A DNA stretch of 58,956 nucleotides from Aurantiochytrium sp. KH105 (lineage: Eukaryota; Sar; Bigyra; Thraustochytrida; Thraustochytriidae), in assembly GCA_003116975.1 (NCBI GenBank), contig BGKB01000256.1, positions 1-58,956 on the forward strand, given 5' to 3'. Below, one piece after another: positions 9,405 through 48,431 of this stretch (position 1 is the stretch's first letter; every line of letters begins with the position of its first letter). A program made the translations under genes and the position numbers. The notes beneath the pieces were generated by a model. That model did not search any database. It was given only the letters and a program-made list of their open reading frames with translations, and was not told where the DNA came from.

Positions 9405-10886
9405 ATGGACGAGTCGAAGGGCGCCGCCGCGACCAAGCCCAAGTGCTGCGGCCCCAAGAGCAAGACCGGGAACGAGACGAGTGAGCCCGTCGCAGCCCCG
9501 GAGGAAAAGAAAAAGTCGTCATGCTGCGGCCCCAAGAGCGCCAACGTTCAGGGAAGCAGCGAATCCGGTTCCAGCAGCACCAGCGGCTGCTGCAAGCCCG
9601 CCCAAAAGGACGAGAGTGACACCAGCTCGGGCTGCTGCAAACCCAAAAAGGAGGAAGAGAAGAAACCTTCGAGCTGCTGCAAACCTGCCGCATCGAGCTG
9701 CTGCAAACCTGCTGCATCAACTGGCTGCAAACCGGCCGCTTCGAGCTGCTGCAAACCGGCCTCCGTCACGCCTGCCATGCAGGCAGCCGACATGGACGGC
9801 GCCGATGCTGTCAAGGATGCTGTCAAGGAGTATTATGGCAAGACGCTGAGCAAAAGTGGTGACCTGAAAACCAACGCGTGCTGCACCTCGGGTGCTCCCG
9901 ATGAACGTCTCAAGGATGCGCTTCGCAACGTTCACGATGAGGTCCTCGCCAAGTACTACGGGTGCGGCTCCGTCGAGCTCGACGTCATTGAGGGTGCGCG
10001 CATTCTCGATCTTGGATCCGGAAGTGGGCGTGATGTCTACGTGCTGTCGCAGTGGGTGGGCCCCGAGGGCCACGTTGTTGGCGTCGACATGACTGACGAG
10101 CAGCTCGACGTCGCGCGCAAGCATCAAGAGTACCATCGCGAGCGCTTTGGATACGATTCGTCCAACGTCACTTTTTTGAAAGGATACATTGAACGCCTCG
10201 AGGAACTCGGACTTGAGGCTGGATCTTTTGATCTCATCACCTCAAACTGCGTGATCAATCTTTGCCCAGACAAGCGTGCCGTTCTCCGCGAAGCGTACAA
10301 GCTCCTCAAGACGGGAGGCATGATGGAGTTTTCCGACGTTTACGCAGAACGTCGTGTTCCGGACGAACTGAGAAAGGACCCGGTGCTTTGGGGCGAATGC
10401 CTCAGCGGGGCTCTTTACTGGGGAGATTTCGAGAACATGGCAGTCGAGTGCGGCTTTGGTCGTCCGCTCATTGTCAAGGACTCTGTCATCACCATTGAGA
10501 ACAAGGCCGTCGAGGCCAAGATTGGCCACATTCGCTTCTATAGTGTCACCTACCGTCTCACCAAGCTGGAAGAAGGCACATTCGAGGCCTCCGAAGAAGA
10601 CTACGGCCAAGCCGTTGTTTACAAGGGCACCATCGACGGCAACGAGCACGAGTATTGCCTTGGTCTCGGCGCCGAGTTCATCACCGGCAAGATTACGCCT
10701 GTAAGCGGAAACGTTTTTGCCACGCTCCAGCGCTCTCGCTTTGCGGAGCACTTTAGCTTTTACGGCGATACTTCCCGCCACTTTGGGCCCTTTTCGCGCA
10801 CGGGCCGCTCTGTGCCTTTCAAGTCTGCGCAGCAACTCGGTGCAGTCGACACCACCCCCGTTGGCGGCGACTCTTGCTGCTCTTGA
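9405..10886 (+). CDS. AS3MT: arsenite methyltransferase with Cys-Cys repeat N-terminal extension
   Basis: The 493-residue protein transfers methyl groups from S-adenosylmethionine to trivalent arsenic in the cytosol. The SAM-binding motif ILDLGSGSGRDVYVLSQ is at 200-216 and VVGVDMT at 224-230. The arsenic-binding Cys are present: Cys159/160 in KTNACC, Cys282 in SNCVINL and Cys332 in GECLSGALYW, matching the three functional Cys of animal AS3MT. The first 125 residues are an extension with Cys pairs at 14-15, 40-41, 62-63, 77-78, 91-92, 99-100 and 115-116 plus Cys108, mostly in CCKPA or CCGPK units; the protein also ends in SCCS. This looks like a metallothionein-like metal-holding tail. The ATG at 9405 is the first in frame and sits in a favourable GCCATGG context. 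The enzyme assignment is firm; the tail's role is inferred. Confidence 0.93.
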   Translation: MDESKGAAATKPKCCGPKSKTGNETSEPVAAPEEKKKSSCCGPKSANVQGSSESGSSSTSGCCKPAQKDESDTSSGCCKPKKEEEKKPSSCCKPAASSCCKPAASTGCKPAASSCCKPASVTPAMQAADMDGADAVKDAVKEYYGKTLSKSGDLKTNACCTSGAPDERLKDALRNVHDEVLAKYYGCGSVELDVIEGARILDLGSGSGRDVYVLSQWVGPEGHVVGVDMTDEQLDVARKHQEYHRERFGYDSSNVTFLKGYIERLEELGLEAGSFDLITSNCVINLCPDKRAVLREAYKLLKTGGMMEFSDVYAERRVPDELRKDPVLWGECLSGALYWGDFENMAVECGFGRPLIVKDSVITIENKAVEAKIGHIRFYSVTYRLTKLEEGTFEASEEDYGQAVVYKGTIDGNEHEYCLGLGAEFITGKITPVSGNVFATLQRSRFAEHFSFYGDTSRHFGPFSRTGRSVPFKSAQQLGAVDTTPVGGDSCCS

Positions 10887-15160: not shown

Positions 15161-15615
15161 AGACGTGGTCAATACGCGCCAGCAAGTTTTAAGATCGCTT
15201 TTTCGTAGTGAGATTGTCTCCATCAGTCTGAACTGCAAGCATGAAACGAGTTCGTAACAATAAAAGGAGTAGAGAGGGATTCATGAGAGAGAATGTTAAA
15301 ATTGATAATAAAAAGCAAAGACTCTTCAAACAAAAATAAAATGGAATTGCAACTCTGCACCATCCAAGGTATGCCTGGCTGAGGTTGTGGTAAATTCGCG
15401 CCAGCAAACAGTAAATTCCCTTATTCGTTGGGAGATAGTCTCCATCAGCCTGAACTGCAAGCATGAAATGAGTTCGTAACAAGAAAAGGAGGAGAGAGGG
15501 ATTCAAGAGAGAGAGGTTATGTAAATTGATTACACAAAGACTCTTCAAACCAAAATAAAGTGAAATTGCAACTCTACCACACGCTGCACCATCCAAGGTA
15601 TGCCTGGCTGAGGTT
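15161..15615. repeat. 229-bp tandem duplication that includes the last codons of TOR
   Basis: Two diverged copies, about 15161-15386 and 15387-15615, share GTCTCCATCAG, CTGAACTGCAAGCATGAAA, GAGAGAGGGATTCA, GACTCTTCAAAC and CACCATCCAAGGTATGCCTG. The copy nearer TOR contains the real end of its reading frame (NLSQAYLGWC...). The far copy repeats the same codons (NLSQAYLGWC) in the 3' untranslated region. The duplication therefore copied the terminal coding exon end together with 3' flank. Confidence 0.9.
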
Positions 15616-18600
15616 CTCATGAGAGGTTGCCTGTACAATAAGCCGCTGCACCTGCAGAGAAACTGGCGCAGGGGACTCTTCCATTTCTTCGTCGTCTTCG
15701 TCTTTGGGAACCTGCTTGCCGCGGTTGAACTTTCTGGCTCCATTTTCTGCCGTACCTGTCTCACCATTGCCACCACGTGGTGAAAAGGGCGGGGCCGTCG
15801 CCGGCGCCGATGGTGCCTTGCCAAGTGGATCCCGTTTCGGTTTCTTCACGGCAAAATCACGACCGGTCAGCTTGTCGTGCACACGCTGCAAGACCGCCAA
15901 TGCACGCTGATTGAGCGCCTCAGCATTGGCGTCCGCGTGCATTTGCACGATGCTTGACTCGCGCGAGGTGCGACTCCGCGAGGGGGTCGCAGATCCAACC
16001 TCTTGCGTCGAACCGCGCGGGGATATGCGACCCTCCGTGCGAGCGCGTGGTCTCAGATTTAGACCTTCTCCGCCGTAGTGACGGTCGAGAGGCATCCCCA
16101 CCGAAGTCAGCCGCCGCCGCATGGGGCCGAGCATCGACGAATCTTCGCGTCCGCTGCGCATAGAGTCTGCGCCATTGCCTCGCCCCTGCGTGGACCTTGA
16201 AGCTTCCGAAGAAGACAAACTGCCTCCGTCGCGCTGCGCCAACGACTGGCCCGTAGAGGTTGTTGATACCGACATGCTCGATGGATCGCGGGCTGCAGAC
16301 TCGCTCTCGTTCTGCAGCAGACGCCAATTGATGAGCGGATCATGGACAAAGGCCTCCAACATCGCCATCACCGAATCACGGTTCGCACGGAGCACCCGCA
16401 TCACCGATTCGCACGTGTAGCGAAAATTGCCCTCCACACCGGAAACCTCCATGGCCGCAATCAGCATCCGTGTCAGACGAAATGGCACCTTTTCAGGAAA
16501 CTTCTCACGGTGCATTGCAACCTCGAAACAGTCGCCAAAGTCGATGTGAATAACTTTGCCCGACGAGCGGTCCAACATCAAATTGCTCGGGTGCCGGTCG
16601 CCAAGGCCCAAGACGTACCCGACCATTGACATTGTCGCCAGCGAACGCGTATAGTTGGTCCGGCGATCCAACCAGATCTCCGAGTTCCGGCTCTTGAGCC
16701 AGAGAACCTTGCCGAGGTCACCACCGTTCGTGTGAGCCAAGGCGTGGCAAAAGGCCTCCACCTTTTGAATCACCGTCAGCGACGTGTAGTCCGGCGCCAC
16801 CTTCTTGATGAGCCGCTGCTCGATATCCAACAATACGCTGCGCGAATTCCGGAAACGCTCAATGAGGGCGTGAAAGGTGTCCGTATTGGGAAGCCACTCC
16901 GAGATTCCGACATTGTGCGACAGAGGAATCACGGCAAAGCGTTCAATGTTCAGATCATAACGGTTCGTCTCGCGCTCCTTCTTCAGCAGTCGGTTCACGA
17001 GACCAAAGAGCTGCATGACACGTTCGTCCTGCCGCAAATCCTCATGGCCCTTGAGCAGAAACAAGTAGTCTTTGCCGTCGCTTCCGCGCAAGGTGATCTG
17101 GCGCGGTCTCTGTTTCGACACAATGATACGGATCATCGAAGCAAAACCGTCAATGCAGACAACGGGCCGTCCTGCTACATAGGTTCCTGGAACAGCCAGT
17201 TGCATATCGTGCGCATTTAAGAGTGCTGGCGAAACCTTGTCCAGCTCCAGCTGCTTGAGTTGTGATAGCTCGCGATTGATTTTGCGAAAAACCTGATGGT
17301 ATTTCTCCCAGGCTTGTAAAATCATTTCCTTTCTGCGCTCTGTTTGCATGAAACGCTCCTTGCATCGCTCCGCAACCTCCAGGTCACGACCGTAGGCTCG
17401 CACAAATTCGTGCTCGTGGATCGTTTCAAACTGTTCGCGCATGAGATCATGCTTGGCGTCCAGGATTTCGTTCATTGCGTCAATGTCCTCATCATCATTA
17501 AAGTACGCCCTGGAGGCCTCCTCGATCGCCTCGTACCACTGCTCGGGCCACAGAATGGCCACGCGAATGAGCTCGTGGCTTACGAGCTGCGCTTGGTCGA
17601 CGAGGGTCGCATTGCCTGGCGTGCGACGCAATTCGTCCAGAATCAGCTGCGCTGCTCTCTGCCGGTGAGGATTGATCGACTTGGCCGCAACTGTCAAGGG
17701 ATACACAAGGGCGTGCGGGTGCTCTTCGCCAAGCGTGACCAAGAGACGATGCAACGCAGCCTTGATGGTAGGTACACGCGTGTGGATGCGCGCAATCAAT
17801 TGCGGGACAACGTCCAACCACGTTCCAATGCTGACCATCTCAAAGCCCTTTTGAATGGCGACTTCTACTTCGGGACGCGCACCGTGGGAAAACCACAGCG
17901 TGAGCAGGCGCAGAATGTCCTGCAGCACGTTTCGCGAGTCCGACGAGGTTTGACCGAGGGCGATCGACTGGAAGAAGCCATAGATTGCGGGCACCACGTA
18001 TTGTTGCATCTTTTCCGAAATCTCTTGGCGACGGCGGTTCAGCGCGCGCTTACGGGCGCGCTTCTTTCGCCGCCGTGCTTCCTTAGCGGCCGCAGCTTGC
18101 GCCTTGAGGTCGCGAAGTTGGCTGCTGCCATCACGACGTTCGCCCTTTTTCAGGTTGCTGCTTTGAGTGGAGGTGGTGGTGGCATTTGTGCTTGCTGGAT
18201 TCTCTTTATCTGCTGAAGAGACGTCCTTCGAAACGGGCGGAGCAGGGATAGGGTGTTCAGAGTCCTTCTCAGTGTCGCTCTGATCTGGATCGGCGACCAC
18301 GTTTCCTTTTCCATTTGATGCGGAGGGACCGGCATCTTCATCATGATTTTGGCGTTGCATCATCGGTGCCGGGGTCGGCGTTGGCGTCAGAGACTCCGCA
18401 TCGTCCTCTTTACCATCGTCGCCTTCTTCGGCGGCGCTTGTCATATCGCCGTTGGGAACGGTGTCATCAGCATGTCCATTGGCGCCTGGCGTCGAGTTCC
18501 CGTCGTGCACTGTGCCACCATTTGCTGCAGCTGCAGCAGATTGTGGACCTCCGCCATTCGCGCCTTCAAGATGATCATGATCATGGTCATTATCTGCACC

Positions 18601-21600
18601 ATTTTCATCTTGTTCCTCGTCGTTGCCTTGCTTGCTCTCATCAATTTCCTCCTCATCGTTCTCTTCTTTCCTTGCGCCATTCTTGACCTTTCCTGCGTCT
18701 GTTACTGCGCCTGCGTCTGCTTCTTCCTCTTCCTCTTCCTCTTCTTCCTCCTCTTCCTCGAGGAGAATGCTGTCGGTCTCCTCCTTGATTGCATCGTGTG
18801 CGGAGGCAAGGTCCACAAAGGACGAGGCTGTGCTCAAATGATCGGGAGATCCAGGCGAAAGCGAGAGAAGAGCGCGGTTATAGAGCTCCACTGCGCGAAA
18901 GTTCATGAGTGCCCACGCGTGCCAAGCCTTGTAGTTGTCAGGCTCCATCTCCGTGGCTGCATAAAAGATGCAAAGAGTATCGGCAATGATATCTTCCCGC
19001 AGCTTGTAATCTTCAATGGCTAGCTTCCACGAGCCAAGCTTGAGGTAACAGCGCACCAAGAGTTTGCGATCGTTCTGCACAAGGGGACTCGCACGGTGCC
19101 GATGCTCGAGAATACCAATGACGCGCTCAAGGTTTTCAATGGTACTGCTTCGTCCTTCCCGGATCCGCAGATTCGTGGACTCCACCGCATTGTGAGCGGG
19201 CATCAGCACCTCCCGAGGCTGTTCAATCGGAACAACCGTGAAAGAAGTCCGGTACGAGGAACTGTACCCGCTCACCATATAGTGACTGCTTCGCAGCTGA
19301 TCGTCTTGGTGCGACTGCATGGACTGCTCCTTCAAAAGAGCCCAGCGATACTTGAGAAAGGCAAACGAGGTATGCGGATCAATATCCTCAAAGTCGTCGA
19401 AATTCTCGTCTGAAACGCCCAGACGCTGCAGTGTCATGAAGCAAATACGAAGGCGGTCGCTCTTGCGGCAAATTGTCGAGAACTTAATGTAGGTGTGGAG
19501 GTCCTCTTTGGGCTCGAGCACAAGTGAGTGAGCCCCAAGAATAGACTGCCACACGGCTACGTTCTCTTGGGATCCACGAATTCGCTTTGACCAAATCTTT
19601 TGCAGCTTGGCTTTGAGCTCGCCAATCTCTTCGACCGAGTGGACCCGGGACGCAACACGCTGTTTGTACTCGTAGATCTCGTCGAGCTCAGCAAATTGCT
19701 GCACAGTCACAATCTGCCGGTACGCACGATTGTAAGACTCGCCGACGAGCGCACCGAGCTGCTCGCCAAGCAAAGTGCGACCAGAGTCGATCATTTGACG
19801 CGAGGTGACGAAATCGTTGCGCTGCAGCGCGAGAACAGCTCGAAGCATGTAGCCATCGAGATTTTTCTCGGGGATGAACTTTGCAAAGCCCTCCATCGCG
19901 TTCCAATCGCCACACGACCACGCACTCTGGCAAAACATGGGTGCCATCTTGGCCAGAGCCCATTCCCTTGGCACGCGTTGCCAAATCTGGTCGGCGAGAG
20001 TCATGAGCTGATCGTACTCACCAAGATTGATCAAGCATCGTACCTTACCCATGGTGCTTGCGAGATCCTCTTCGCTCAACGTCACTGAGGGCTGCTCATC
20101 CAAGTGCTTGAGTTTGTCCTCGTACGACTCGAGCGCCTCTTCCCAGCGCCCAAGCTTCTCGAACCAAGTCTCCTTCAACATTATTGTACCGTCTTCGACA
20201 AGGTCGTCCATTTCAAAGGGTTCCACGGACGCGTTGCCGTTAGGCATCGACCCGTCATCGCGCGGACGTCCGCCGCGCGATTCCTGGTCAAATCCATCGT
20301 CCCCAAAGCTCGAGTGCGACGAGACGCGCGCAACCTCATCTCTGTGCGACTCGGAGCCGTCGACATCATCCATTCTCTCCATGCCAGAGTTTTGCCGCCG
20401 TCGCTGTTGCTGTTGGCGTTGCTGACGTTGCATTTGCTGCGTCATGTGATGTTGCTGCTGCTGTGACTGAAAGAATTGTTGTTGAGGCGATAGCGCGGCA
20501 GCTGCGACGCCAAAGTCGAGCATGTTGACTTCAGGGATGCGTTTCGTGGCCGGCTGACTGCAAGCCATTTGGTATTGCCGTCGCTGAAGCTGCTGTACGT
20601 AATGCAGGATTCCCACGGCAGCTTCTGGCTGCTCGAGCTTGTTGTTAATCGAAATCAGCCCCTCGGTGCATGCCCCAGGCAAATTGCGAAACACCATTTC
20701 CTGGTAGTGCAGCGCCTTGGCATACGCATGGCAACGTTGCGCGTAGTTACCCAAGTCACGAATACCAATGGGCAGGACACGGTCATCATGCTCCATGAAC
20801 TCGGCAAGATCAAGCAGCATCTGTAAGGTTTCAGGCGGCGTTCGAGATGATTGCAGAGCAACCTCCAGAGAGTAAATCAGGCTTCCCTGATATTGGTCCG
20901 CGAGAGAAGACCAGCACGAAACAAAGGCTGGGTTGAAGAGCTCTTTGGCCAACGGGTTGTAGACCTGCGCTACCGCCGAGCACGCTCGCAATGCCGGGCT
21001 CGGCGACTCACGCAAGAGCTCCACGGACAGACGACGCATCCACTCCTTCCATTCTTCTGCGGTCGCGCGCTCGCTCGCTTCCCAGGCATTTTGCAGCTTA
21101 TTCTGGTTCACGTGCAGCATCTTTTGCGTCGCGCCAAGATCGGCATCTGCGGAAGCGAGGCCATCCAGACCTCCCAGCACGCTTCCGGCGCGGGAACCAA
21201 GGTCCAGCATGGGAATACTCGGGTCCGTCGACGATGACTCGCCATGAAAGGCACGAAGAAGGGTGTCCAAGAAACGGTCACGTTCGATCGAGTGGCGAGA
21301 GTCGGCAATTCCGGCAAAATTGCTCGAATTACGCCCGTCAGAGTCCTGCAGGATCTCGGACCGAAGAATGCCCAAGGTGGTCTTGAAATGCTCGACGGCC
21401 AGCGGCGGCAATGCGCGCGCCCGAACAGTGTTTTCTACCGTCTGTTCAAACATGTAAAAGATAGATGGGAAACGCAGCGCAAAGATGCATAGGGTGTCGA
21501 CGGCCTGGCACTTGAGTGAGGCCACGACAGGTCTTCGGAGCAGACGCAAAAGGCACTGCATGGCGTGCAAAGCGTAATCGGCAAAGAAGGCATGGCTGCT

Positions 21601-24600
21601 CAGATGGCCGAGGGCATGGACGGCGTAGATGCGCACCTGACCGTCCGCTGACTCCGTTTCGACGAGTTCAATGAGGGCTGGGATAATGAGATAAAAGTAG
21701 CCTGTCAGGGTGAACCCAAGCACTTCAATCGTTTTGAAGACGCGTCGCGCCGAGGCCGGAGTAGCGTATTTGCCCATGGACAATTTCTGCTCCGCTGTTG
21801 CAGCGACGCGATGCGGCTTCGAACCTTGAGCACCCGAGGCAGCGGATAGAGCGTCAAAGGGGGGCCCTGCATTTGAACGCGACGCAGGCTGCCCTGCCAC
21901 AGCCGCGATCCCTGCCATGGGCCCGCCAATTGCCGACACGCCTAGATTGGCCAGCGAGGCCGTCGGGGAAAGTCCATTGGGGCCCGACGACTCCATCGGT
22001 CCATGATGAGGCGACCGTCGCCTTCCACCTGCTGTGGAGACCATCGCGGGTGAGGCGTATGAAGGCCCGAGTGCGCCCTGAGCGGTGACGTCTCGAGCGC
22101 TTTGTGCCGATCCTTGGACACCGCGGAAGAATCGATTGTCGGATGGGCTCCTCAATGTAAGAGCCCCAATGCCTTGCATTCCGAATTTAGTGACTTTGCC
22201 CGCTGCGCCAATCGATATTTTGCTGGGATCCATGTTGTTCGTGCGCATCATCTCGATCACAGCGAGAATATTAGGCAAGACCGATCTCGCATAGGGAACA
22301 AACTCTTCACGCAATGCACGCGAAATCTCCTCGATGAGTACAAAAACCTGGTCGAGGTTCTCGTACCAATACGTGTGAATGAGATGGAAGATATCCTCGA
22401 GATAAGGTCGAATGTGCTGCTTGGAAATCGACACAAGGACGCTAATGTTGAAAAAGAGCACTTTGCGCAGCTCTTGCTCGCAACTCGTCGCGACCTGAAT
22501 GATGCAAGGCATGATCTGTGGAAGAAAGGTGACACATGCTAGACCCAGACTGCGAAAGATGTGCGTCAGCGCCTGGATCACCATCGAATGATGGGTGGCG
22601 AGCGTACCATCTTGCAAAATGCGAATGAGCGCGTGGATGGCAACGGTTGGATAATAGTCCTCATCTTTGGGACCAAGCGGCTCCGAGTCTTCATCCAAGT
22701 GCGAATAACGCGGATCTCCCGCGTGAGCATGTGCGCGCGTATGTGCAAAATGTGGCCCGTGTTGACCGGTCGCCTGCGAAGATGCTGTCGAGGCCGTGTC
22801 AATGGTTCCGTGTCCCGCTCCGCGCCCGGTACCCGTCGTGCCTCCGGTCCAATCATTGGCTTGGCCTCCGCCGCCAGCGCCAGCGCCCCCGCCGCCACTG
22901 CGCGATGCGCCAGGATTCCGCGAACGAGAGCGAGAGCGTTGTTTGGTCTCAAAGGGATCCAGCGCACCAAGCGAGCCGAGGGCCTTTAACGCTTCTTCTC
23001 GAAGGCCCCAGGGCATGGTGCTCCCCCCTTTGATCACGCCAAGCAGGGTGTCAAGCAGGTTAGGGTACTCGAGAAGCGGAGTGATGACGAGACCTGTGCT
23101 TCTCACCAGCTGACCGAGCATCCAAAGCGCCCAGCGCCGCTTGTCCGGGGAGCCCTGATCCTGCAAAATGTCAATGGTCAAGGGAAGGAGATCGGACATG
23201 TAATCGCGCATGTCGACGCCGTGCATCGAGGCCACCTCACCCAGGGTGCGGAGGATGGCCGTGGACATTGTGTTGCGCGCATCGCGGAGCTTGGTAAGTA
23301 GAATCTTGATGAGCGGGACGATGATAGGCGAGATGAGGGGCGTGGCATGGCTCGAGCCGCCCTTCATGAGCCGCGAGCGGTTAAAGCCAGCCACAACGTC
23401 GCCAAGAAGAATAACTGCGCCTTCTTCGCGCTGATTTTGTGTTGGGGAAAATCGAAGCTGTGCCATGGCAGCCAAAATACACTTCCGCACGGCAGGATAG
23501 ATGAGTGCTGGGTTGCGCGGCGACAAGCGCGAAGCAACGGCCATACCGATTCGACGCACATAAAAGTCTTCATCATGAAGCGCCACAAATAAAGCCTGCA
23601 GAGTGTCTTCGTGGATGAGAAAATCATCAAAGCGGTCATTCTCCTTGAGGCAGGTGAGCACGGCTGCGCGAATGGCTGGCTCCGGATCCGAGACGCCAAG
23701 CATCAAAAGACGACGAACGCCTTCGGAGGTAAGTTTCGCGCTAACGCCCCAATTGTCAAGACGCGAACTTGATTCGGAGTCAGGCTTGGACAATGGCGCA
23801 AGAAGAGCTCCACAGGTGAGGGCAACTTCCTTGCGAATGAGTGGATCCGAGTCGTCCATGTATGGAATGACACTGTTGTGAAGGAAGGGAAGGAGATTGA
23901 CTGCGCAGAAATCAAATTTACGCAGCGTCTGGAGCGCGAGCAAAATGAGCCTTCGCTGACGAATAGATCGAGCACGTCCTCCGACAAAGGTATTGGTGGC
24001 CCCGTAGCTGTTGCTATTGCTGCCGCTGCTGCTGTTGCTGGCGACACCCGATCCGTTTCCTATTGATAAATCTGCGCTGAGACCGTATTGGTGCGGGTGA
24101 CTCGGACTTTGAAAGTGGTGGTGATAATGCGGGTGCGTCTGCGCAGGATATGACCCATGATGATCCACAACAGACGCCGCTGACCCTGGCGGCGCGCCTG
24201 AGCCTGCAGCACGACGCTGCACCCCGCCTGCGAAAAAGAGAAAGTATGAGGCTGAATGTGGCGAAGCCTGCGCGGGTGACTGCTCGGTCGGCCAGTTAAG
24301 ACGCGCGAGAGCATCGTCCTCCCCAAGTGTCGAACTTGTGAGCGTGATGGCGTGCGATACCGGTCCTGCAACACGGTATTGCACGCCACTTCGAGGGCCT
24401 GGTATTCTGGCCTCGAGGGCTTCGATCATGTCGAGATGCGAAAACGTTGTGGCCTCGAGCACGCCACCTCCAGGTGGCGCGCGAAACGGGCACCCGGAAA
24501 GCGTATAAGAGAGGCTGTGGAGGAGGTGTGACATGATGAGTTCACGCAAGGATGGAATGCGGCGTTGCAAATCTGTCACGGCGTCGATAAGCGGAGCGCT

Positions 24601-26040
24601 CAGCCCATTTCCAAACATTTCCCCCAAGAGTCCGTTCGCCATGTTGTGTTCGAGAAGTGCAGGGCCTACAGCTTGCGAGAGCATCGAGACGCAAGCGAGC
24701 GTTGCCTCGTAATGAGTCCTCGATCCGTCTGTGGTAAGATCGGTAACGCCCAGCGCCTCCCGCGCGGCTGCCTCGGATTGCATTTCAGGACGACTCAGCG
24801 CCTTTGCTTGGCGCGAGGGTTCGCTCGTGGCTCGCGGGACGCCGAGAGCATCCGGCGAGAGCCCTTCTCTGACGCGAAGCATGATTTCTGGCAGGTATGG
24901 CAGAATTTGATACGTGACCGCGATGGCGAGCTTGCCCAGAGCAACGAATGCCGCGTCGCGTTCTGACTTCTTCTCCACTGCCGAGAAAAGGTGTTGGATG
25001 CAGATTTCAAGGTAGCTGCGCACAAAGGCATCTGGGCAATAGGAAGCGAGCTCGGGAAGGAGACGGATCACAGTGCGCCGCACAAGGGCGTCGCGCTTGT
25101 AATCGCGGTACTTTAGCACGGTCTCGCAACATTCTGCGAATCGTGGGATCATAAATCGCCCTGAATGGTTCAGAAGCTCGCCGAGCGTGAGAAGGGAGCC
25201 ATGGATTGTCGCCGCTTTGCCCTGCGCAAAACCGAGACGCGCAATTTCAAAAACCTTGTAGTACCATTGAACGCAGAGGCGTGAGTCTTTCAAAAGGATG
25301 AGCTCAAGCGAGGCGCGCAGGGTGAGCATGGCTGCTGTACGCGTAAATTCTCGGTCATCGTGGAGGCCAGTTCGGATGTGGTCCAGCACCGTAGACACGT
25401 GTGAAATAAACAGCACGGGGCTATTCAATGCAAGCTCCCGAAGCACAAGGATAGCGGCCACTTTGCGCCTTCGCAAAAGAACAGGATCTGCAGTCTTGCG
25501 AGGTTTCCTGGAGTGCTCCAAAGGAGCAAAAATGGCAAAGCGCTGTGAGTTCTCCGACTTGCCCATGGCCACGGAGGTATCGTCGAGCTCTGAGGCTGCG
25601 AGAAGCCATTCAAAGGCGCGCTTAACCTCGAACTCTACAAAGTCGACCGTAAGAGGTCCGCCCGCGCGAGCGAGCGCGCCGAGGCTGAGCGCCGCGAGCA
25701 CGAGTGTGTGGACATCGACACGATCCTCAGGCTGCTGAAAAACGATGCGAATGTAGTTTGCAAAGCGGATGACCTTGACCTCATTTTCTTCGTACGATAT
25801 CTCGATGAGCTCTCGAATGGCCAAGACGCCGCCTCGAACCCGCCTGGTGTCAGCTGAGGAAACGAGCACGAAGATGCCCTCATAGACCTCGTTCATGAAT
25901 TTTACGAATTGCTCATTTGACAGTACATGGTGCTCAGCCTCGACGAGTTCGCGAAGACGGCACGCTGCCTCCAACTGGGTCGCTTCGTCGGGCCCGTTGC
26001 CCAGCGCCTGCAGCGTCTCACTGAGGTCAGCCACGGCCAT
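15574..26040 (-). CDS. TOR: target of rapamycin (TOR) serine/threonine kinase
   Basis: One frame encodes 3488 residues without introns, from an ATG at 26040. N-terminal HEAT-type helical repeats fill about 1-1500, and the FAT region follows from about 1600 to 2700. The FRB domain (ILWPEQWYEAIEEASRAYF, about 2825) keeps the Ser of EEAS and the Trp of QAWEKYHQVF, so it should still bind FKBP-rapamycin. The kinase domain has KGHEDLRQDERVMQLF (about 2995), GLGDRHPSNLML (about 3140) and IHIDFGDCFE (about 3170). The last 33 residues are a FATC domain ending ATSHENLSQAYLGWCSVW. TOR works in TORC1/TORC2 as the nutrient-sensing growth kinase. It is much longer than the usual 2400-2550 residues because of low-complexity inserts: a Ser/Gly/His-rich insert near 600-670, a Gln-rich run near 1850-1885, a Glu run and acidic block near 2425-2600, and about 220 residues between kinase and FATC. 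Confidence 0.97.
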   Translation of the reverse strand: MAVADLSETLQALGNGPDEATQLEAACRLRELVEAEHHVLSNEQFVKFMNEVYEGIFVLVSSADTRRVRGGVLAIRELIEISYEENEVKVIRFANYIRIVFQQPEDRVDVHTLVLAALSLGALARAGGPLTVDFVEFEVKRAFEWLLAASELDDTSVAMGKSENSQRFAIFAPLEHSRKPRKTADPVLLRRRKVAAILVLRELALNSPVLFISHVSTVLDHIRTGLHDDREFTRTAAMLTLRASLELILLKDSRLCVQWYYKVFEIARLGFAQGKAATIHGSLLTLGELLNHSGRFMIPRFAECCETVLKYRDYKRDALVRRTVIRLLPELASYCPDAFVRSYLEICIQHLFSAVEKKSERDAAFVALGKLAIAVTYQILPYLPEIMLRVREGLSPDALGVPRATSEPSRQAKALSRPEMQSEAAAREALGVTDLTTDGSRTHYEATLACVSMLSQAVGPALLEHNMANGLLGEMFGNGLSAPLIDAVTDLQRRIPSLRELIMSHLLHSLSYTLSGCPFRAPPGGGVLEATTFSHLDMIEALEARIPGPRSGVQYRVAGPVSHAITLTSSTLGEDDALARLNWPTEQSPAQASPHSASYFLFFAGGVQRRAAGSGAPPGSAASVVDHHGSYPAQTHPHYHHHFQSPSHPHQYGLSADLSIGNGSGVASNSSSGSNSNSYGATNTFVGGRARSIRQRRLILLALQTLRKFDFCAVNLLPFLHNSVIPYMDDSDPLIRKEVALTCGALLAPLSKPDSESSSRLDNWGVSAKLTSEGVRRLLMLGVSDPEPAIRAAVLTCLKENDRFDDFLIHEDTLQALFVALHDEDFYVRRIGMAVASRLSPRNPALIYPAVRKCILAAMAQLRFSPTQNQREEGAVILLGDVVAGFNRSRLMKGGSSHATPLISPIIVPLIKILLTKLRDARNTMSTAILRTLGEVASMHGVDMRDYMSDLLPLTIDILQDQGSPDKRRWALWMLGQLVRSTGLVITPLLEYPNLLDTLLGVIKGGSTMPWGLREEALKALGSLGALDPFETKQRSRSRSRNPGASRSGGGGAGAGGGGQANDWTGGTTGTGRGAGHGTIDTASTASSQATGQHGPHFAHTRAHAHAGDPRYSHLDEDSEPLGPKDEDYYPTVAIHALIRILQDGTLATHHSMVIQALTHIFRSLGLACVTFLPQIMPCIIQVATSCEQELRKVLFFNISVLVSISKQHIRPYLEDIFHLIHTYWYENLDQVFVLIEEISRALREEFVPYARSVLPNILAVIEMMRTNNMDPSKISIGAAGKVTKFGMQGIGALTLRSPSDNRFFRGVQGSAQSARDVTAQGALGPSYASPAMVSTAGGRRRSPHHGPMESSGPNGLSPTASLANLGVSAIGGPMAGIAAVAGQPASRSNAGPPFDALSAASGAQGSKPHRVAATAEQKLSMGKYATPASARRVFKTIEVLGFTLTGYFYLIIPALIELVETESADGQVRIYAVHALGHLSSHAFFADYALHAMQCLLRLLRRPVVASLKCQAVDTLCIFALRFPSIFYMFEQTVENTVRARALPPLAVEHFKTTLGILRSEILQDSDGRNSSNFAGIADSRHSIERDRFLDTLLRAFHGESSSTDPSIPMLDLGSRAGSVLGGLDGLASADADLGATQKMLHVNQNKLQNAWEASERATAEEWKEWMRRLSVELLRESPSPALRACSAVAQVYNPLAKELFNPAFVSCWSSLADQYQGSLIYSLEVALQSSRTPPETLQMLLDLAEFMEHDDRVLPIGIRDLGNYAQRCHAYAKALHYQEMVFRNLPGACTEGLISINNKLEQPEAAVGILHYVQQLQRRQYQMACSQPATKRIPEVNMLDFGVAAAALSPQQQFFQSQQQQHHMTQQMQRQQRQQQQRRRQNSGMERMDDVDGSESHRDEVARVSSHSSFGDDGFDQESRGGRPRDDGSMPNGNASVEPFEMDDLVEDGTIMLKETWFEKLGRWEEALESYEDKLKHLDEQPSVTLSEEDLASTMGKVRCLINLGEYDQLMTLADQIWQRVPREWALAKMAPMFCQSAWSCGDWNAMEGFAKFIPEKNLDGYMLRAVLALQRNDFVTSRQMIDSGRTLLGEQLGALVGESYNRAYRQIVTVQQFAELDEIYEYKQRVASRVHSVEEIGELKAKLQKIWSKRIRGSQENVAVWQSILGAHSLVLEPKEDLHTYIKFSTICRKSDRLRICFMTLQRLGVSDENFDDFEDIDPHTSFAFLKYRWALLKEQSMQSHQDDQLRSSHYMVSGYSSSYRTSFTVVPIEQPREVLMPAHNAVESTNLRIREGRSSTIENLERVIGILEHRHRASPLVQNDRKLLVRCYLKLGSWKLAIEDYKLREDIIADTLCIFYAATEMEPDNYKAWHAWALMNFRAVELYNRALLSLSPGSPDHLSTASSFVDLASAHDAIKEETDSILLEEEEEEEEEEEEEADAGAVTDAGKVKNGARKEENDEEEIDESKQGNDEEQDENGADNDHDHDHLEGANGGGPQSAAAAANGGTVHDGNSTPGANGHADDTVPNGDMTSAAEEGDDGKEDDAESLTPTPTPAPMMQRQNHDEDAGPSASNGKGNVVADPDQSDTEKDSEHPIPAPPVSKDVSSADKENPASTNATTTSTQSSNLKKGERRDGSSQLRDLKAQAAAAKEARRRKKRARKRALNRRRQEISEKMQQYVVPAIYGFFQSIALGQTSSDSRNVLQDILRLLTLWFSHGARPEVEVAIQKGFEMVSIGTWLDVVPQLIARIHTRVPTIKAALHRLLVTLGEEHPHALVYPLTVAAKSINPHRQRAAQLILDELRRTPGNATLVDQAQLVSHELIRVAILWPEQWYEAIEEASRAYFNDDEDIDAMNEILDAKHDLMREQFETIHEHEFVRAYGRDLEVAERCKERFMQTERRKEMILQAWEKYHQVFRKINRELSQLKQLELDKVSPALLNAHDMQLAVPGTYVAGRPVVCIDGFASMIRIIVSKQRPRQITLRGSDGKDYLFLLKGHEDLRQDERVMQLFGLVNRLLKKERETNRYDLNIERFAVIPLSHNVGISEWLPNTDTFHALIERFRNSRSVLLDIEQRLIKKVAPDYTSLTVIQKVEAFCHALAHTNGGDLGKVLWLKSRNSEIWLDRRTNYTRSLATMSMVGYVLGLGDRHPSNLMLDRSSGKVIHIDFGDCFEVAMHREKFPEKVPFRLTRMLIAAMEVSGVEGNFRYTCESVMRVLRANRDSVMAMLEAFVHDPLINWRLLQNESESAARDPSSMSVSTTSTGQSLAQRDGGSLSSSEASRSTQGRGNGADSMRSGREDSSMLGPMRRRLTSVGMPLDRHYGGEGLNLRPRARTEGRISPRGSTQEVGSATPSRSRTSRESSIVQMHADANAEALNQRALAVLQRVHDKLTGRDFAVKKPKRDPLGKAPSAPATAPPFSPRGGNGETGTAENGARKFNRGKQVPKDEDDEEMEESPAPVSLQVQRLIVQATSHENLSQAYLGWCSVW
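18713..18765. repeat. TTCCTC-type repeat encoding a Glu run in TOR
   Basis: Imperfect TCC/TTC triplets on the plus strand read as about fourteen consecutive Glu codons on the TOR strand, at the start of a long disordered acidic insert in the FAT region. Confidence 0.85.
20395..20485. repeat. Gln-codon-rich segment in TOR
   Basis: Degenerate GCTGTTGCTG-type triplets encode a Gln/Arg/His-rich run in TOR (about residues 1852-1882). The codons are mixed CAG and CAA, which suggests an old, stabilised repeat. Confidence 0.8.
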
Positions 26041-33666: not shown

Positions 33667-35844
33667 TCAGCTAGTGCCAGAAAAGAAGTGATGACGTATG
33701 TTTCTGCAAGGCGGAAAGTCTTGACGCGTGGCAAGAAGTTCGCTGCAGAGGGTTTTGTAGTCGTCTTCTTCGTCAACATCCCTGAAGACGCGACGGCCAA
33801 CTTGAACCTGAACATCACAGCGCATGACGGCTGCAAGCTGTGTGGCAAATGCAGCGCCCGTGGACCATGCCACGTCAAAGAAAGCAGGCTTGCCCAGCGC
33901 ACCAGGAACCGCCAAAAGCGCGTAGCCTCCATCAAGAGCAGGAGCCAAAAAGGCTTGATGCGGATCGCGTAATGGGACCGCAAGTGCTTCGCAAAGTTGA
34001 TCAACGCCTAGATGCGGTGTGTCCATGCCCACAAAAGCGACAGCGTCTGTGTCGGCGCTTTCGAGAGCAGCGCCAAGAGCGCTACCAAGCTTTCCGAGAC
34101 GTACATCCGGATCAGCCGTGGCTGGCATGCTTTCGAGGTCCCATTTCGAGCTCTCCGCGGGCCAATGGGCGTCCAGCCATGCACGATACTCGTCCCGATC
34201 TTCCGCGGGACTAAAGAGAATGACGCGCCTGACGCTAGCGTGCAGCGCTTCCTCAAGACGGGCCGAGCCAAGTTCCGTGACAAGGTCGCCAATGCAGGCG
34301 CGCGCAAAGTCGAGAGCGGTCTCTTGGCCGATCGTTGCTGCGAGACGCGTCTTGCAGGTTCCGAGTCGCGGGAAGCGAGCGACAAGAAAGACTGTTGCGC
34401 AACGCGGTCTTGCGCGGTATCCACTGACGCCAAGGTTGGCGGGACCTTCGCTTTGCCCTTGCCCTTGCAAGCCTATTTCAGCATTGCAGCATTCGAGAAG
34501 GGCTTCAATGGACGTGAGCTTTGGTAGAGAACGTCTTCGGTCCCGCAAGATGACCTGGGCAATGCGCAGCGCCGCAGATTCTGCCTGCGCGCGCGTGGAG
34601 TCGTCTTGCATTCGTTCGAAGTCCTCAACATGTGCGACGCCAATTGTCCGTCGGACTAATTCGACTGCGGCAAAGCCCATTGCATCGATGCAAACGTCGC
34701 GGAGCAAGGACCGCAGGGCGAACTGAGGCGGGACATTTTCATCCGGTAAGTACATGCTGATACGGCCCTTTTCCTTGCTGCCGGCGAGACGCGAGTTCTG
34801 GAGTATATTACGTCGCTCCGCTGTCCACTGTTCCTGCAATGCCATGGCAAAAGCTAGCCAGAACTCGCGAAGCTCTGCAAGCGCGAATCCAGATTTATGT
34901 GCGCACGCAGAAATAATAAGATTACCCATGAATGTACCCACGTCAAAGGCCATTGGGCCCATGAGGGCAAATTCGGAGTCAAAGAAGCGGAGACGATCTG
35001 GACCAGCATTTATTCCGCCAAGATGATCAAGGCTCACAAGGATGGATCCTGTGTGAAGGTCTCCGTGAAGAAGACATTCGGCATGCGAGGTGAAGCGCGC
35101 TTTGAGATCGGCGACCGCGAGGAGAAGATCCGCGTCGTGACGAATGGTGCGCACCTGATCATCGAGAGCAGGGCTTGTCCAGCGGCTCGGAAAGGTTGGG
35201 TTCTCGACAAAAGGGGACGTAAAAAAGGCTTCTTCCGTCGCCACGCAAAGATCGTCGTTGCCCGCAAAGTACTCGATGAGACGCCGCCGCTCGGATGCAT
35301 CGAGACCCCAGACAGAAGTTGCAAAAAGTAAGTTCGCGAGAGCTTCTCCAGCTAGTGCTCCAAGGCCTCTTGGCTTGGCACCGCGCGCAAGCGCAGGCCG
35401 GAGCACTTCGAAAGGAGCGGGCAGATATTCCATGAGTACACAAGCATAATGTTCATCAAAGGCCAGCACGCGAGGAACAATAGGACGGGCGCTCGGATGG
35501 CGGGCTGCAATACGCGCAAAAACCTGCAGCGATGCATGTTCAAAGTATATACGCTGACAAGCCATCTTGAAGTCTTGATTCATGCGCATGTACGGAAGCG
35601 CTTGCTTGATGCAGATGCGTTGATCCGGTTCGGCGCCTTCGACCTCGAACACATGGTTCAAGTTGCCGTCGGAGACCTCCCGGACGGTTTGGACGCGACC
35701 GCCAAGAGCTGCAGTCACGATGTTTGCGTGTCGACCACAAAGGAAGCTTTCGACAGATTCAACTTGGAGGGGCTGGAAACCTTCTGGTACGCTGCCGTGC
35801 TGTGGAGCCGGGAGGAGCACGTCAGACCACGAGAGGTCCTCCAT
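33667..35844 (-). CDS. fusion of methylthioribose kinase (MtnK) and DUF2064 GT-A-type transferase
   Basis: The 725-residue protein starts at the ATG at 35844. Residues about 25-440 are an S-methyl-5-thioribose kinase: VSDGNLNHVFEV at 58-69, CIKQALPYMRM at 78-88, HGDLHTGSILV at 260-270, DSEFALMGPMAFDVG at 289-303 (DPEFA in relatives) and RRTIGVAHVEDFE at 398-410. Such kinases phosphorylate carbon 1 of 5-methylthioribose in methionine salvage. Residues about 482-710 are a DUF2064 (TIGR04282-type) transferase with ARFPRLGTCKTRLA at 489-502, FVGMDTPHL at 604-612, APALDGGYALL at 634-644 and FFDVAWST at 655-662. This family has a nucleotide-sugar-transferase fold and bacterial members are linked to arsenosugar loci. 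Both halves keep their motifs in one frame, so this is a true fusion. No targeting signal is seen. The joint substrate is unknown; see findings for the arsenosugar hypothesis. Confidence 0.92.
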   Translation of the reverse strand: MEDLSWSDVLLPAPQHGSVPEGFQPLQVESVESFLCGRHANIVTAALGGRVQTVREVSDGNLNHVFEVEGAEPDQRICIKQALPYMRMNQDFKMACQRIYFEHASLQVFARIAARHPSARPIVPRVLAFDEHYACVLMEYLPAPFEVLRPALARGAKPRGLGALAGEALANLLFATSVWGLDASERRRLIEYFAGNDDLCVATEEAFFTSPFVENPTFPSRWTSPALDDQVRTIRHDADLLLAVADLKARFTSHAECLLHGDLHTGSILVSLDHLGGINAGPDRLRFFDSEFALMGPMAFDVGTFMGNLIISACAHKSGFALAELREFWLAFAMALQEQWTAERRNILQNSRLAGSKEKGRISMYLPDENVPPQFALRSLLRDVCIDAMGFAAVELVRRTIGVAHVEDFERMQDDSTRAQAESAALRIAQVILRDRRRSLPKLTSIEALLECCNAEIGLQGQGQSEGPANLGVSGYRARPRCATVFLVARFPRLGTCKTRLAATIGQETALDFARACIGDLVTELGSARLEEALHASVRRVILFSPAEDRDEYRAWLDAHWPAESSKWDLESMPATADPDVRLGKLGSALGAALESADTDAVAFVGMDTPHLGVDQLCEALAVPLRDPHQAFLAPALDGGYALLAVPGALGKPAFFDVAWSTGAAFATQLAAVMRCDVQVQVGRRVFRDVDEEDDYKTLCSELLATRQDFPPCRNIRHHFFSGTS

Positions 35845-45701: not shown

Positions 45702-48431
45702 ATGGTTGCGCGAGAGGCGGCGCCGCTGGGCAGCAGTCGCGAAAGCGATATCAAATCGCGCAGCGAGACGCGAAGAACATGGGACGTGCTCATGGTGTCC
45801 TCGGACCCGAGTGCGCATCAAAGACTTAAACTACAGGCTGAGGAAAGAGCGATTCGGCAGTCCATCTCGCTCGCGGAGCATGGGCGACATGTCGACATCA
45901 ACTTGGATGTTTTGCCTGCAGCGACAGCAGATGATTTGGCCAAAAGACTCTTGTGGAAATCGTCGCAGGGCTCCTCGTACGACGTCATCCACTTTAGTGG
46001 TCATTGCGACGTGGATAACCACTTGGTGCGTCTCATCTTCTCGGAGCTGCACCGACAGCATGGGCCCGAAGTCGTCCGACGCTTTCAGTCCAGCAGCGCC
46101 AGTGTTTCCGGCATTCATGAGCTTGCAGCCCAGGTCACTAAACATCTTGAGTCGCAAGCAATGTATTTCATGGACGAAATCGACGTGCCTAGTCTGTCGT
46201 CTTCGGCGCGGTCAAGTTCGACGGGGCAATCCTCCTCGTCAAACTCGTCGGTACCCGGCCCAGCTGCAGATTCGGCGGCAGGAATGGGCCTTGGCACTGC
46301 TGGCTCACCCCGGCGGCCACTTGGTCGCGAAACGAGAAGGAGCGGCGCTCTTCCCGCTATGGGCCGTCGCGGCGATGAGGACAGCGACAGTGACTCACGA
46401 GCGGGCGACGAGGAAGAAGAAAGGGGCGAGGAGCGGAGAAGCTCTTTCGCTCAGAAACAGCACAAGAGAGGAAAGGGGGAAAATGTCCATGATGGGAAAA
46501 AAGACAAAGAAGGAAAATCAGACGAGGAGCAGGACGAAGACGACTTTGCCGCAATGTCCGCCGCGGCCGCCACGCGCGAACGCAGCAAAAGCTGCAGCGA
46601 TGCGGTAGCCCCCGCGTGCGACGAGACGCCGACACGAGGACGCACACACGCGAAACGTGCCGATGTGGTCGCAACAGTAACTGCAGCCGAGTCCTCCATC
46701 GAAGCAGTTGTCGAGACGCACAGCAAATCACGGTCGTTGACGCCCGATTTTCGACTTATTCACAGAGCGCAGACCAAGGCCATTATTCCAGCCGATGCGG
46801 AGCAGCGTGTCGGCGAACAGCGTTTGCTTGTATTTTCCCAAGCCTCAGAGGGGCCTGCAGACCCATCGCAAATGGCGGGCAACGGCGGGCCCTCGCGCCC
46901 CGGCACGCCTGATTCAACTTCTGTGGAAGTATGGAACGATCACGATCCATTGGTGCTCCGTCTTCCGGACGGAGGGCCACATGCGACCAAGGATATCGTG
47001 CTGACCAAGAGTCAGATTCTCGACGCTGGTGTCGGTTCCCTCGCCTTTGAAATGGGTGGTGGGCCAGGGATGAACTTTGTGAGCGCCAAGGCCTTTGCTG
47101 ATCTCGTGTCGCCATATGCTCTCGATCTTCAGTGCATATTACTAAACGCGTGTCACTCGCAGCTCGCGTGCGAGCAATTGCTCGCGGTCGGCATTCCCCT
47201 TGCTATTTGCGCACGAGGTAAAATGTCAGACGCCAGCGCGCTGCATTTTTCCCGTGGGTTCTACGAAGCCTTGGCATACGGCGAATCCGTCGAACGCGCC
47301 TTTGTGGAGGGCCAAAACCGAATGTCGGTCAATGATCGTCGAAGGTATCATCCTGGCCCAGCGGGTCACCCGACGACTGCGCTTGCCCAGCAACATGCAC
47401 GCTTTGCGCACGCCATGCCTCATCCGCACCCACACCCGGACCATGTTGACGTAGTTTGTCTTTTTCGCGCGAGCGGCAGCATGAGGCTCAGTCCCGTTTC
47501 GGTGCGGCGACACCACGACATGGACTCAGAGAACAAGAGTTTGAGACGCATGATTCAAGAAGGTATTTGGCTGCTTGGAACCAAGGATCGAGAGATTCAA
47601 GAGCTTCGCGAGCTCGTTGAAGAATTTAAGGAGCGCGAAAAGGCCCAGAGCGCCCGCGCAAAGACACCATCGAGGGCCAAGACGCCAGCGCGATCCGATG
47701 CGACGACCCGCCGACGAGAGTCGAGCGGGATTCGCATAAACCCTGCTCGGGCAGGATCGCGCCGCGCTTCGGCCAAGACGAATTCAGCAAGTAAACAGGG
47801 CTCGCAGAGGTCACAACGGGATGGCGAACCTAAGCTGGCCACAAATGCGCGCGCGCGCGCAGCAAGGCCTCGTGCTGCTGCATCTAGCAGCGGCACCAAA
47901 TCGCGCGTCGCCACGGAATCGTCCTTTGCTGGCGCCACGGCCTCGACCGCTTCTTCTCGGCGAAAGTCATTCGAACCCCAAGACAGGCCGCAAGACAGAG
48001 CCAAGGTCGGTGTCGAGTCCTCAATGGAGACGCCGCCAGCGGCATCAGGTCCATCCATCAAGCCCTCATCGCCATGGAAACTGAAGACGGGCAGACGCGC
48101 CGAGGCGCGCGACCGCATTTTCACTTCTGCGACATCTTCTGCGACAGTGAAAGGCGGTAGGGACAAGGATAAGGAAAACAGATCTGGCTCGCAAACACAA
48201 CAGGCCCCGCGAACGCCGACTCGACCTCGTAAGATCTTCACGACGGCGTCTGCCACCGCTGCGCAATCTCATGCGCAGTCGAATGGAAGTCCACCTGGAC
48301 AACAAGGAGGACAAGCTCAGCCGAGCTACCATGGCTTTGGCTCAAGCGTGCCTCGTTTCTCGACAACTTCCGTTCCTCACAACCCTGGCAGGTACGACTG
48401 CGCGTCGCCAAAGACTCGCACCAAGTTTTGA
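45702..48431 (+). CDS. CHAT-domain (caspase-like) peptidase with large insertion and disordered tail
   Basis: The 909-residue protein starts at the ATG at 45702. Residues 27-110 are the first half of a CHAT domain: WDVLMVSSDPSAHQRLKLQAEE, then YDVIHFSGHCD with catalytic His101. The second half resumes near 455: LDLQCILLNACHSQLACEQL with catalytic Cys484, then GIPLAICARGKMSDASALHF and SRGFYEALAYGESVERAFVEG. Between them is an insertion of about 300 residues, low-complexity and charged, where relatives have a few dozen. After about 600 come a short coiled coil (KDREIQELRELVEEFKEREK) and about 270 disordered residues rich in Ser, Arg, Ala and Lys. CHAT proteases belong to clan CD with caspases and separase; bacterial ones act in regulated cleavage, for example CRISPR-linked proteases and gasdermin activation. 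Substrate here is unknown. No N-terminal TPR is present. Confidence 0.82.
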   Translation: MVAREAAPLGSSRESDIKSRSETRRTWDVLMVSSDPSAHQRLKLQAEERAIRQSISLAEHGRHVDINLDVLPAATADDLAKRLLWKSSQGSSYDVIHFSGHCDVDNHLVRLIFSELHRQHGPEVVRRFQSSSASVSGIHELAAQVTKHLESQAMYFMDEIDVPSLSSSARSSSTGQSSSSNSSVPGPAADSAAGMGLGTAGSPRRPLGRETRRSGALPAMGRRGDEDSDSDSRAGDEEEERGEERRSSFAQKQHKRGKGENVHDGKKDKEGKSDEEQDEDDFAAMSAAAATRERSKSCSDAVAPACDETPTRGRTHAKRADVVATVTAAESSIEAVVETHSKSRSLTPDFRLIHRAQTKAIIPADAEQRVGEQRLLVFSQASEGPADPSQMAGNGGPSRPGTPDSTSVEVWNDHDPLVLRLPDGGPHATKDIVLTKSQILDAGVGSLAFEMGGGPGMNFVSAKAFADLVSPYALDLQCILLNACHSQLACEQLLAVGIPLAICARGKMSDASALHFSRGFYEALAYGESVERAFVEGQNRMSVNDRRRYHPGPAGHPTTALAQQHARFAHAMPHPHPHPDHVDVVCLFRASGSMRLSPVSVRRHHDMDSENKSLRRMIQEGIWLLGTKDREIQELRELVEEFKEREKAQSARAKTPSRAKTPARSDATTRRRESSGIRINPARAGSRRASAKTNSASKQGSQRSQRDGEPKLATNARARAARPRAAASSSGTKSRVATESSFAGATASTASSRRKSFEPQDRPQDRAKVGVESSMETPPAASGPSIKPSSPWKLKTGRRAEARDRIFTSATSSATVKGGRDKDKENRSGSQTQQAPRTPTRPRKIFTTASATAAQSHAQSNGSPPGQQGGQAQPSYHGFGSSVPRFSTTSVPHNPGRYDCASPKTRTKF

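Follow-up and report, generated by a model that had tools for sequence, protein, structure and literature searches.

A methylthioribose kinase-like protein fused to a DUF2064 domain in Aurantiochytrium, a candidate sugar-activating enzyme of arsenosugar biosynthesis

The window, a stretch of 58,956 nucleotides from a contig of Aurantiochytrium sp. KH105, carries an MtnK-DUF2064 fusion gene at 33667..35844 of the minus strand, where a single open frame from ATG to stop encodes a protein of 725 aa; the position and single frame agree with those given by an earlier sequence-only reading of this DNA. The N-terminal part of the protein is an MtnK-like kinase half (residues 24-438; 34531..35775, minus strand), distinguished by a TIGR01767 match and by HGD, DxE and RR motifs, whereas the C-terminal part is a DUF2064/TIGR04282-like half (residues 487-695; 33760..34386, minus strand), delineated by profile matches, predicted-structure matches and conserved motifs. 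The three motifs quoted in that reading are indeed found, namely the catalytic loop HGDLHTGSI of the kinase at residues 260-268 (35041..35067) and, within the DUF2064 half, FVGMDTP (GxD; 34015..34035) and ALDGGY (DGG; 33922..33939), all on the minus strand.

A second copy of the fusion, identical in 711 of the 725 aligned columns, is located on contig C15 of the genome assembly (76 Mb in 367 contigs), which was searched with profiles in six frames, ignoring introns. Since COX15 adjoins the fusion on both contigs, the two look like haplotypes. Between the copies, dN/dS is about 0.08 for the kinase, 0.08 for the DUF2064 half and 0.31 for the linker, values derived from a total of 31 synonymous and 12 non-synonymous changes, and the fusion, including its DUF2064 half, is under purifying selection. 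Given the near-identical C15 copy and the low dN/dS of both domains, the fusion appears not to be an artefact of assembly. The protein has no match in phage records.

The same two-domain order is seen in two further proteins, P0002 (56% identity over 99%) and P0004 (33% over 95%). As the genome has no PF00504 light-harvesting match, algae, among which the earlier reading proposed to seek the fusion, may not be the appropriate comparison. Non-exhaustive searches with the DUF2064 part and with a four-fusion alignment gave no fusion beyond P0002 and P0004 among the matches listed; the alignment search listed 120 of 1944 matches, P0002 itself not being among these, and a separate search listed 120 of 521. 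In a tree of domain-cut DUF2064 ORFs, from which one short row (L076) was left out, the three fusion domains group as a single clade (99/98), in which P0004 is long-branched. In a kinase tree of the three fusions and 60 of 204 MtnK rows picked at random, a branch supported at 89/38 separates the three fusions from the other rows, but long branches meet there, and when the kinases were built apart with 40 rows, the nearest rows differ among the fusions. Taken together, the trees suggest that a single origin of the fusion is likely.

The kinase half exceeds both the cut-off of the MtnK equivalog TIGR01767 (residues 24-438; 293.1 bits against a cut-off of 275) and the gathering threshold of Pfam APH (32.7 bits, gathering 23.2). 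In addition, the catalytic Asp within the HGD loop, the DxE Mg motif and the RR substrate motif are all retained, as set out for MtnK in the available text of PMC2194712. While these features are shared with MtnK, the protein differs in its fusion to DUF2064, in the changed W-loop and pocket cap, and in the absence of a detected MTA nucleosidase from its genome. As phosphorylation of methylthioribose would be only a putative activity, we term this half MtnK-like. It retains only 86 of the 119 positions that are near-invariant in MtnK, such that the kinase activity may be altered or lost. MtnK is also joined to PF01008 (MtnA-type) or PF00702 (HAD) domains in P0151, P0092, P0124 and others, and fusions of MtnK are thus recurrent.

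The tryptophan of the W-loop in MtnK (Arabidopsis W76), described as semi-conserved, caps the 5-methylthio group, according to the accessible portion of PMC2194712. In the alignment with MtnK rows, this residue is replaced by F92 (35569..35571, minus strand) and the second capping residue (Arabidopsis V184) by A206 (35227..35229, minus strand), such that two of the three 5-methylthio-capping residues are smaller in the fusion of this genome. Among the 204 MtnK rows, which are matches of 400 to 470 aa to our own queries, the W76 position is Trp in 203 and the V184 position is Leu, Val or Met in all; the corresponding residues are Ile and Ala in P0002 and Trp and Val in P0004, and the V370 position is Val in all three fusions. 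A roomier pocket, as these substitutions would predict, fits a dimethylarsinoyl group, whereas the canonical residues of P0004 would count against the arsenic-sugar reading. The pocket change was rejected as proof of an arsenic substrate, since P0004 keeps both the Trp and the Val, other conserved positions of the kinase are lost as well, the comparison rows were drawn by our own queries, and MtnK accepts bulky 5-extensions, methylthioribose (MTR) analogues of this kind being substrates or inhibitors in the part of PMC2194712 available to us.

The DUF2064 half exceeds the gathering threshold of Pfam DUF2064 (PF09837; 40.9 bits, gathering 25.8), but lies below the cut-off of TIGR04282 (80.6 bits, cut-off 134, residues 487-695) and by profile score is a relative, rather than a member, of the latter family. 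A six-frame search of the genome yields no TIGR04282 matches other than the fusion and its C15 copy. Within an alignment of 19 of the 32 DUF2064 ORFs from bacterial ArsS loci with both copies of the fusion, the residues common to the bacterial ORFs (RL, A, LG, GxD, DGG, DxD and D) are all present here, as are a Lys and a Thr that are nearly invariant. The domain and motifs are those of the DUF2064 ORFs at 32 of 80 bacterial ArsS loci, TIGR04282 being named "arsenosugar biosynthesis glycosyltransferase", although here the score is below the cut-off, the partner is a kinase rather than an adjacent or fused GT2, and the fold suggests nucleotidyl transfer. Indeed, the predicted structure shares the fold of the CofC/FbiD guanylyltransferases over the domain, and its matches of named function are 7p97, which acts on 3-phosphoglycerate, and Rv2983, which was solved with PEP. 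The predicted fold looks nearer to CofC-type guanylyltransferases than to glycosyltransferases, making a nucleotidyltransferase the more likely of the two activities. In contrast to the CofC/FbiD-type phosphate guanylyltransferases, the domain scores below the cut-off of TIGR03552 (26.2 bits, cut-off 105) and its expected substrate would be a sugar-1-phosphate.

An ArsM arsenite methyltransferase of 493 aa, identified by PDB and profile matches, is encoded elsewhere in the window (9405..10886, plus strand), with arsenite methyltransferase 5evj as its best PDB match (337.7 bits) and a score below the cut-off of NF008823 (177.3 bits, cut-off 263). The distance to the fusion is 22.8 kb, in line with the approximately 23 kb noted earlier, and the chance of such spacing in a 38 Mb haploid genome is about 0.0013, a post hoc figure. 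Besides this gene and its copy on C15, at 179 bits, the genome has no clear ArsM, the next place reaching 41.7 bits among the 26 of 39 candidates scored. ArsS is present on contigs C191 and C239 (407 bits, cut-off 300), such that the co-occurrence of the fusion with ArsS, checked within this genome only, is upheld. A TIGR04283-like GT2 is also present, matching over the full profile at 133 bits (cut-off 182), and the contigs of ArsS and GT2 differ from that of the fusion. By profile match, the genome has each of the four families that make up the arsenosugar set of bacteria, the TIGR04282 member being found only as the fusion. The TIGR04282, TIGR04283 and NF008823 matches of the genome all fall under their curated cut-offs, which counts against the explanation that we favour. 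The eukaryotic ArsS (L003 850-2418) is extended at its N-terminus by a long segment in which a hydrophobic stretch is visible by eye, and which may serve in membrane anchoring or targeting.

With respect to methionine salvage, the sequence-only reading had advised looking for MtnA, MtnN and a separate MtnK; the genome contains MtnA (387 bits), no MTA nucleosidase among its PF01048 matches and, in six frames, no MtnK match outside the fusion and its C15 copy. The PF01048 superfamily comprises three genes, each present twice, namely an inosine/guanosine PNP, a uridine phosphorylase and an MTAP/MTIP-like gene. The MTAP/MTIP-like domain scores below the cut-offs of both TIGR01694 (164 bits, cut-off 274.85) and the MTIP model (138 bits, cut-off 223), and has a TRZ/ATZ-type hydrolase (PRK09045, 581 bits, cut-off 540) as its fusion partner. 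The phosphorylase-like and MTA/SAH-deaminase-like parts stand in one frame in L019 1267-3513 (contig C20) and also in L020. Such a protein could provide a possible one-protein route from MTA via MTI to MTR-1-P; with MTA deaminated and then phosphorolysed directly to the 1-phosphate, as we infer, free methylthioribose, the substrate of MtnK, would be left without an evident source. Thus, since an MTA/MTI-phosphorylase-like protein is present and no MTA nucleosidase was found among the PF01048 matches, the fusion kinase may not be needed for methionine salvage, while MtnA, being present, could still consume MTR-1-P. A nucleoside hydrolase (255 bits) is a weakly supported candidate for freeing the arsenoribose, as such enzymes are common.

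Bacterial ArsS neighbourhoods provide a separate view of the DUF2064 family. A scan with the ArsS core yielded 98 confirmed places, the best 80 of which were kept, with many flanks ending at contig ends. DUF2064 occurs in 32 of these 80 loci, and in 30 of the 32 a GT2 lies beside it or is fused to it. Five ORFs contain both domains, each detected by NCBIfam profiles, including that of L028, which is below both cut-offs (159.2 of 182 and 133.7 of 134); a sixth long ORF, L086, has DUF2064 alone. MTAP-like genes are found in or right after the ArsS operons of four of the 80 loci (L029 8365-9210; L034 12011-12853; L080 1855-2706; L093 9083-9865) and are candidate phosphorylases of the ArsS product. 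In L029, L034 and L080, ArsS, ArsM-like, MTAP, GT2 and DUF2064 follow one another in this order on one strand, with MTAPs that exceed the cut-off (294.6, 290.6 and 278.2 bits, respectively), and in L093, a locus without DUF2064, the MTAP-like gene (171.6 bits) directly follows ArsS. The genomes of L029 and L093 encode a second, better-scoring MTAP elsewhere, but no second high-scoring MTAP was seen in those of L034 and L080, where the operon gene may thus be the ordinary MTA enzyme. Across 50 ArsS genomes, an MTAP exceeds the TIGR01694 cut-off in 22, reaches at least 240 bits, a threshold of our own, in 35, among them 26 of the 32 genomes that have DUF2064, and is matched at some level in 48. 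Genuine operon members also fall under their cut-offs, as seen for the DUF2064 of L029 (118.3 of 134), the ArsM-like protein of L034 (194.2 of 263) and the GT2s of L029, L034 and L080 (165.7, 171.8 and 153.6 against 182). MtnK lies beside ArsS in none of the 80 loci, many with truncated flanks, whether a profile of our own is applied at E 1e-5 or at E 10, and exceeds its cut-off in none of the 50 ArsS-bearing bacterial genomes, nine of which have weak matches (best 108.5 bits); thus, no bacterial neighbourhood in this sample backs the kinase itself.

MTAP converts an adenine nucleoside into a sugar-1-phosphate, and MtnK generates the same type of product from a free sugar. With MTAP tied to DUF2064 by operon and an MtnK-like kinase tied to it by fusion, DUF2064 would be expected to take a sugar-1-phosphate; this double tie, drawn from three operons and a single fusion family, is the strongest argument for such a substrate. 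The DUF2064 half could instead act in a CofC-like manner on the acceptor, for which glycerol phosphate, phosphoglycerate or a similar three-carbon phosphate would serve, with the kinase separately making arsenoribose-1-phosphate. The use of three-carbon phosphates by 7p97 and Rv2983 speaks for acceptor activation, yet we regard it as improbable, since DUF2064 is coupled to GT2 in 30 of 32 bacterial loci and in three to an MTA phosphorylase from which a sugar-1-phosphate would come, and is here fused to a sugar-1-kinase. Ordinary methionine salvage, with the kinase serving MtnA via methylthioribose and DUF2064 being a passenger or having an unrelated role, would account for the passed TIGR01767 cut-off, the retained HGD, DxE and RR motifs and the presence of MtnA. 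It is nevertheless an unlikely explanation of a protein with altered pocket cap residues and a DUF2064 half that is both under purifying selection and the sole TIGR04282 match in a genome that shows no MTA nucleosidase among its PF01048 matches and does have, below its own family cut-offs, a phosphorylase-like route to MTR-1-P. The kinase might also recycle arsenoribose or 5-deoxyribose by-products for disposal rather than assembly, for example from the 5'-deoxyadenosine that radical SAM enzymes release, but this seems a very remote prospect, as it leaves unexplained a fused domain whose family adjoins ArsS and GT2 in bacteria, even if the bulky 5-extensions tolerated by MtnK (PMC2194712, in the portion available) would permit it.

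We suggest instead that the protein is probably bifunctional and serves to activate the sugar in arsenosugar biosynthesis. Arsenosugars contain 5-dimethylarsinoyl-beta-D-ribofuranose (PMC10456119, in part), and their biosynthesis involves adenosylation of arsenic by a radical SAM enzyme (available text of PMC12159101, citing Cheng 2021 on ArsS). In the proposed route, ArsM would dimethylate arsenic and ArsS would then add a 5'-deoxyadenosyl group, in keeping with known chemistry, before a nucleosidase, for which the genome's nucleoside hydrolase is a candidate, would remove adenine to leave 5-dimethylarsinoyl-5-deoxyribose. The MtnK half would phosphorylate this sugar at C1 to the alpha-1-phosphate, the anomer that MtnK produces, and the CofC-like DUF2064 half would transfer a nucleotide, perhaps GMP, to yield NDP-arsenoribose. 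An inverting GT2 would convert an alpha NDP-sugar into a beta riboside, and the separate TIGR04283-like GT2 could in this way transfer the sugar to a glycerol-type acceptor to give the known beta-riboside. In some bacteria, phosphorolysis by the operon MTAP would supply the same 1-phosphate, with kinase and phosphorylase being alternative entries to one DUF2064-GT2 module. We give even chances to the wider scheme, in which arsenosugars arise via NDP-5-dimethylarsinoyl-5-deoxyribose and DUF2064 and GT2 are fed by unrelated enzymes, an MTAP paralogue in some bacteria and a pocket-enlarged MtnK-DUF2064 in some eukaryotes. The earlier proposal of a kinase acting at C1 and a transferase preparing the sugar gains from ArsS, the GT2, the sole MtnK and TIGR04282 matches, the absence of an MTA nucleosidase among the PF01048 matches and the three MTAP operons; preparation of the sugar for attachment is retained from it, but the transferase is more likely a CofC-like nucleotidyltransferase, and attachment more likely the task of a separate GT2.

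To our knowledge, NDP-5-dimethylarsinoyl-5-deoxyribose would be the first arsenic-carrying nucleotide sugar. The first steps of the pathway have enzymes, ArsM and ArsS, but we know of none for adenine loss, sugar activation or attachment, nor was one found among the matches listed in the open-licence literature searched (subscription papers being outside its scope); the available parts of PMC12608789 and PMC13171826 name no enzyme for the later steps. In the same literature, "arsenosugar" and "methylthioribose kinase" never occur together, "DUF2064" is absent and, among the matches listed, a single paper mentions both thraustochytrids and arsenosugars, each apart from the other. The architecture is reminiscent of L-fucokinase/GDP-fucose pyrophosphorylase (FKP), where a kinase and a pyrophosphorylase in one chain convert a free sugar into a GDP-sugar (PMC11982464, in part), although here the sugar is a different one and an MtnK/APH-type kinase is combined with a CofC-like domain. 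Algae convert most inorganic arsenic into arsenosugars, as stated in the available text of PMC5387034, and the fusion together with the bacterial operons leads to an ordered proposal for the later steps. It suggests that nucleotidyl transfer, rather than the glycosyl transfer of its label, is the activity of the TIGR04282 family, and that methionine-salvage enzymes have been recruited twice for arsenic.

Elsewhere in the window, an mTOR-like kinase of 3488 aa is encoded in one uninterrupted frame (15574-26040, minus strand), which indicates an intron-poor genome, and a 909-aa protein (45702-48431, plus strand) exhibits a weak match to the CHAT domain (34.4 bits, gathering 24).
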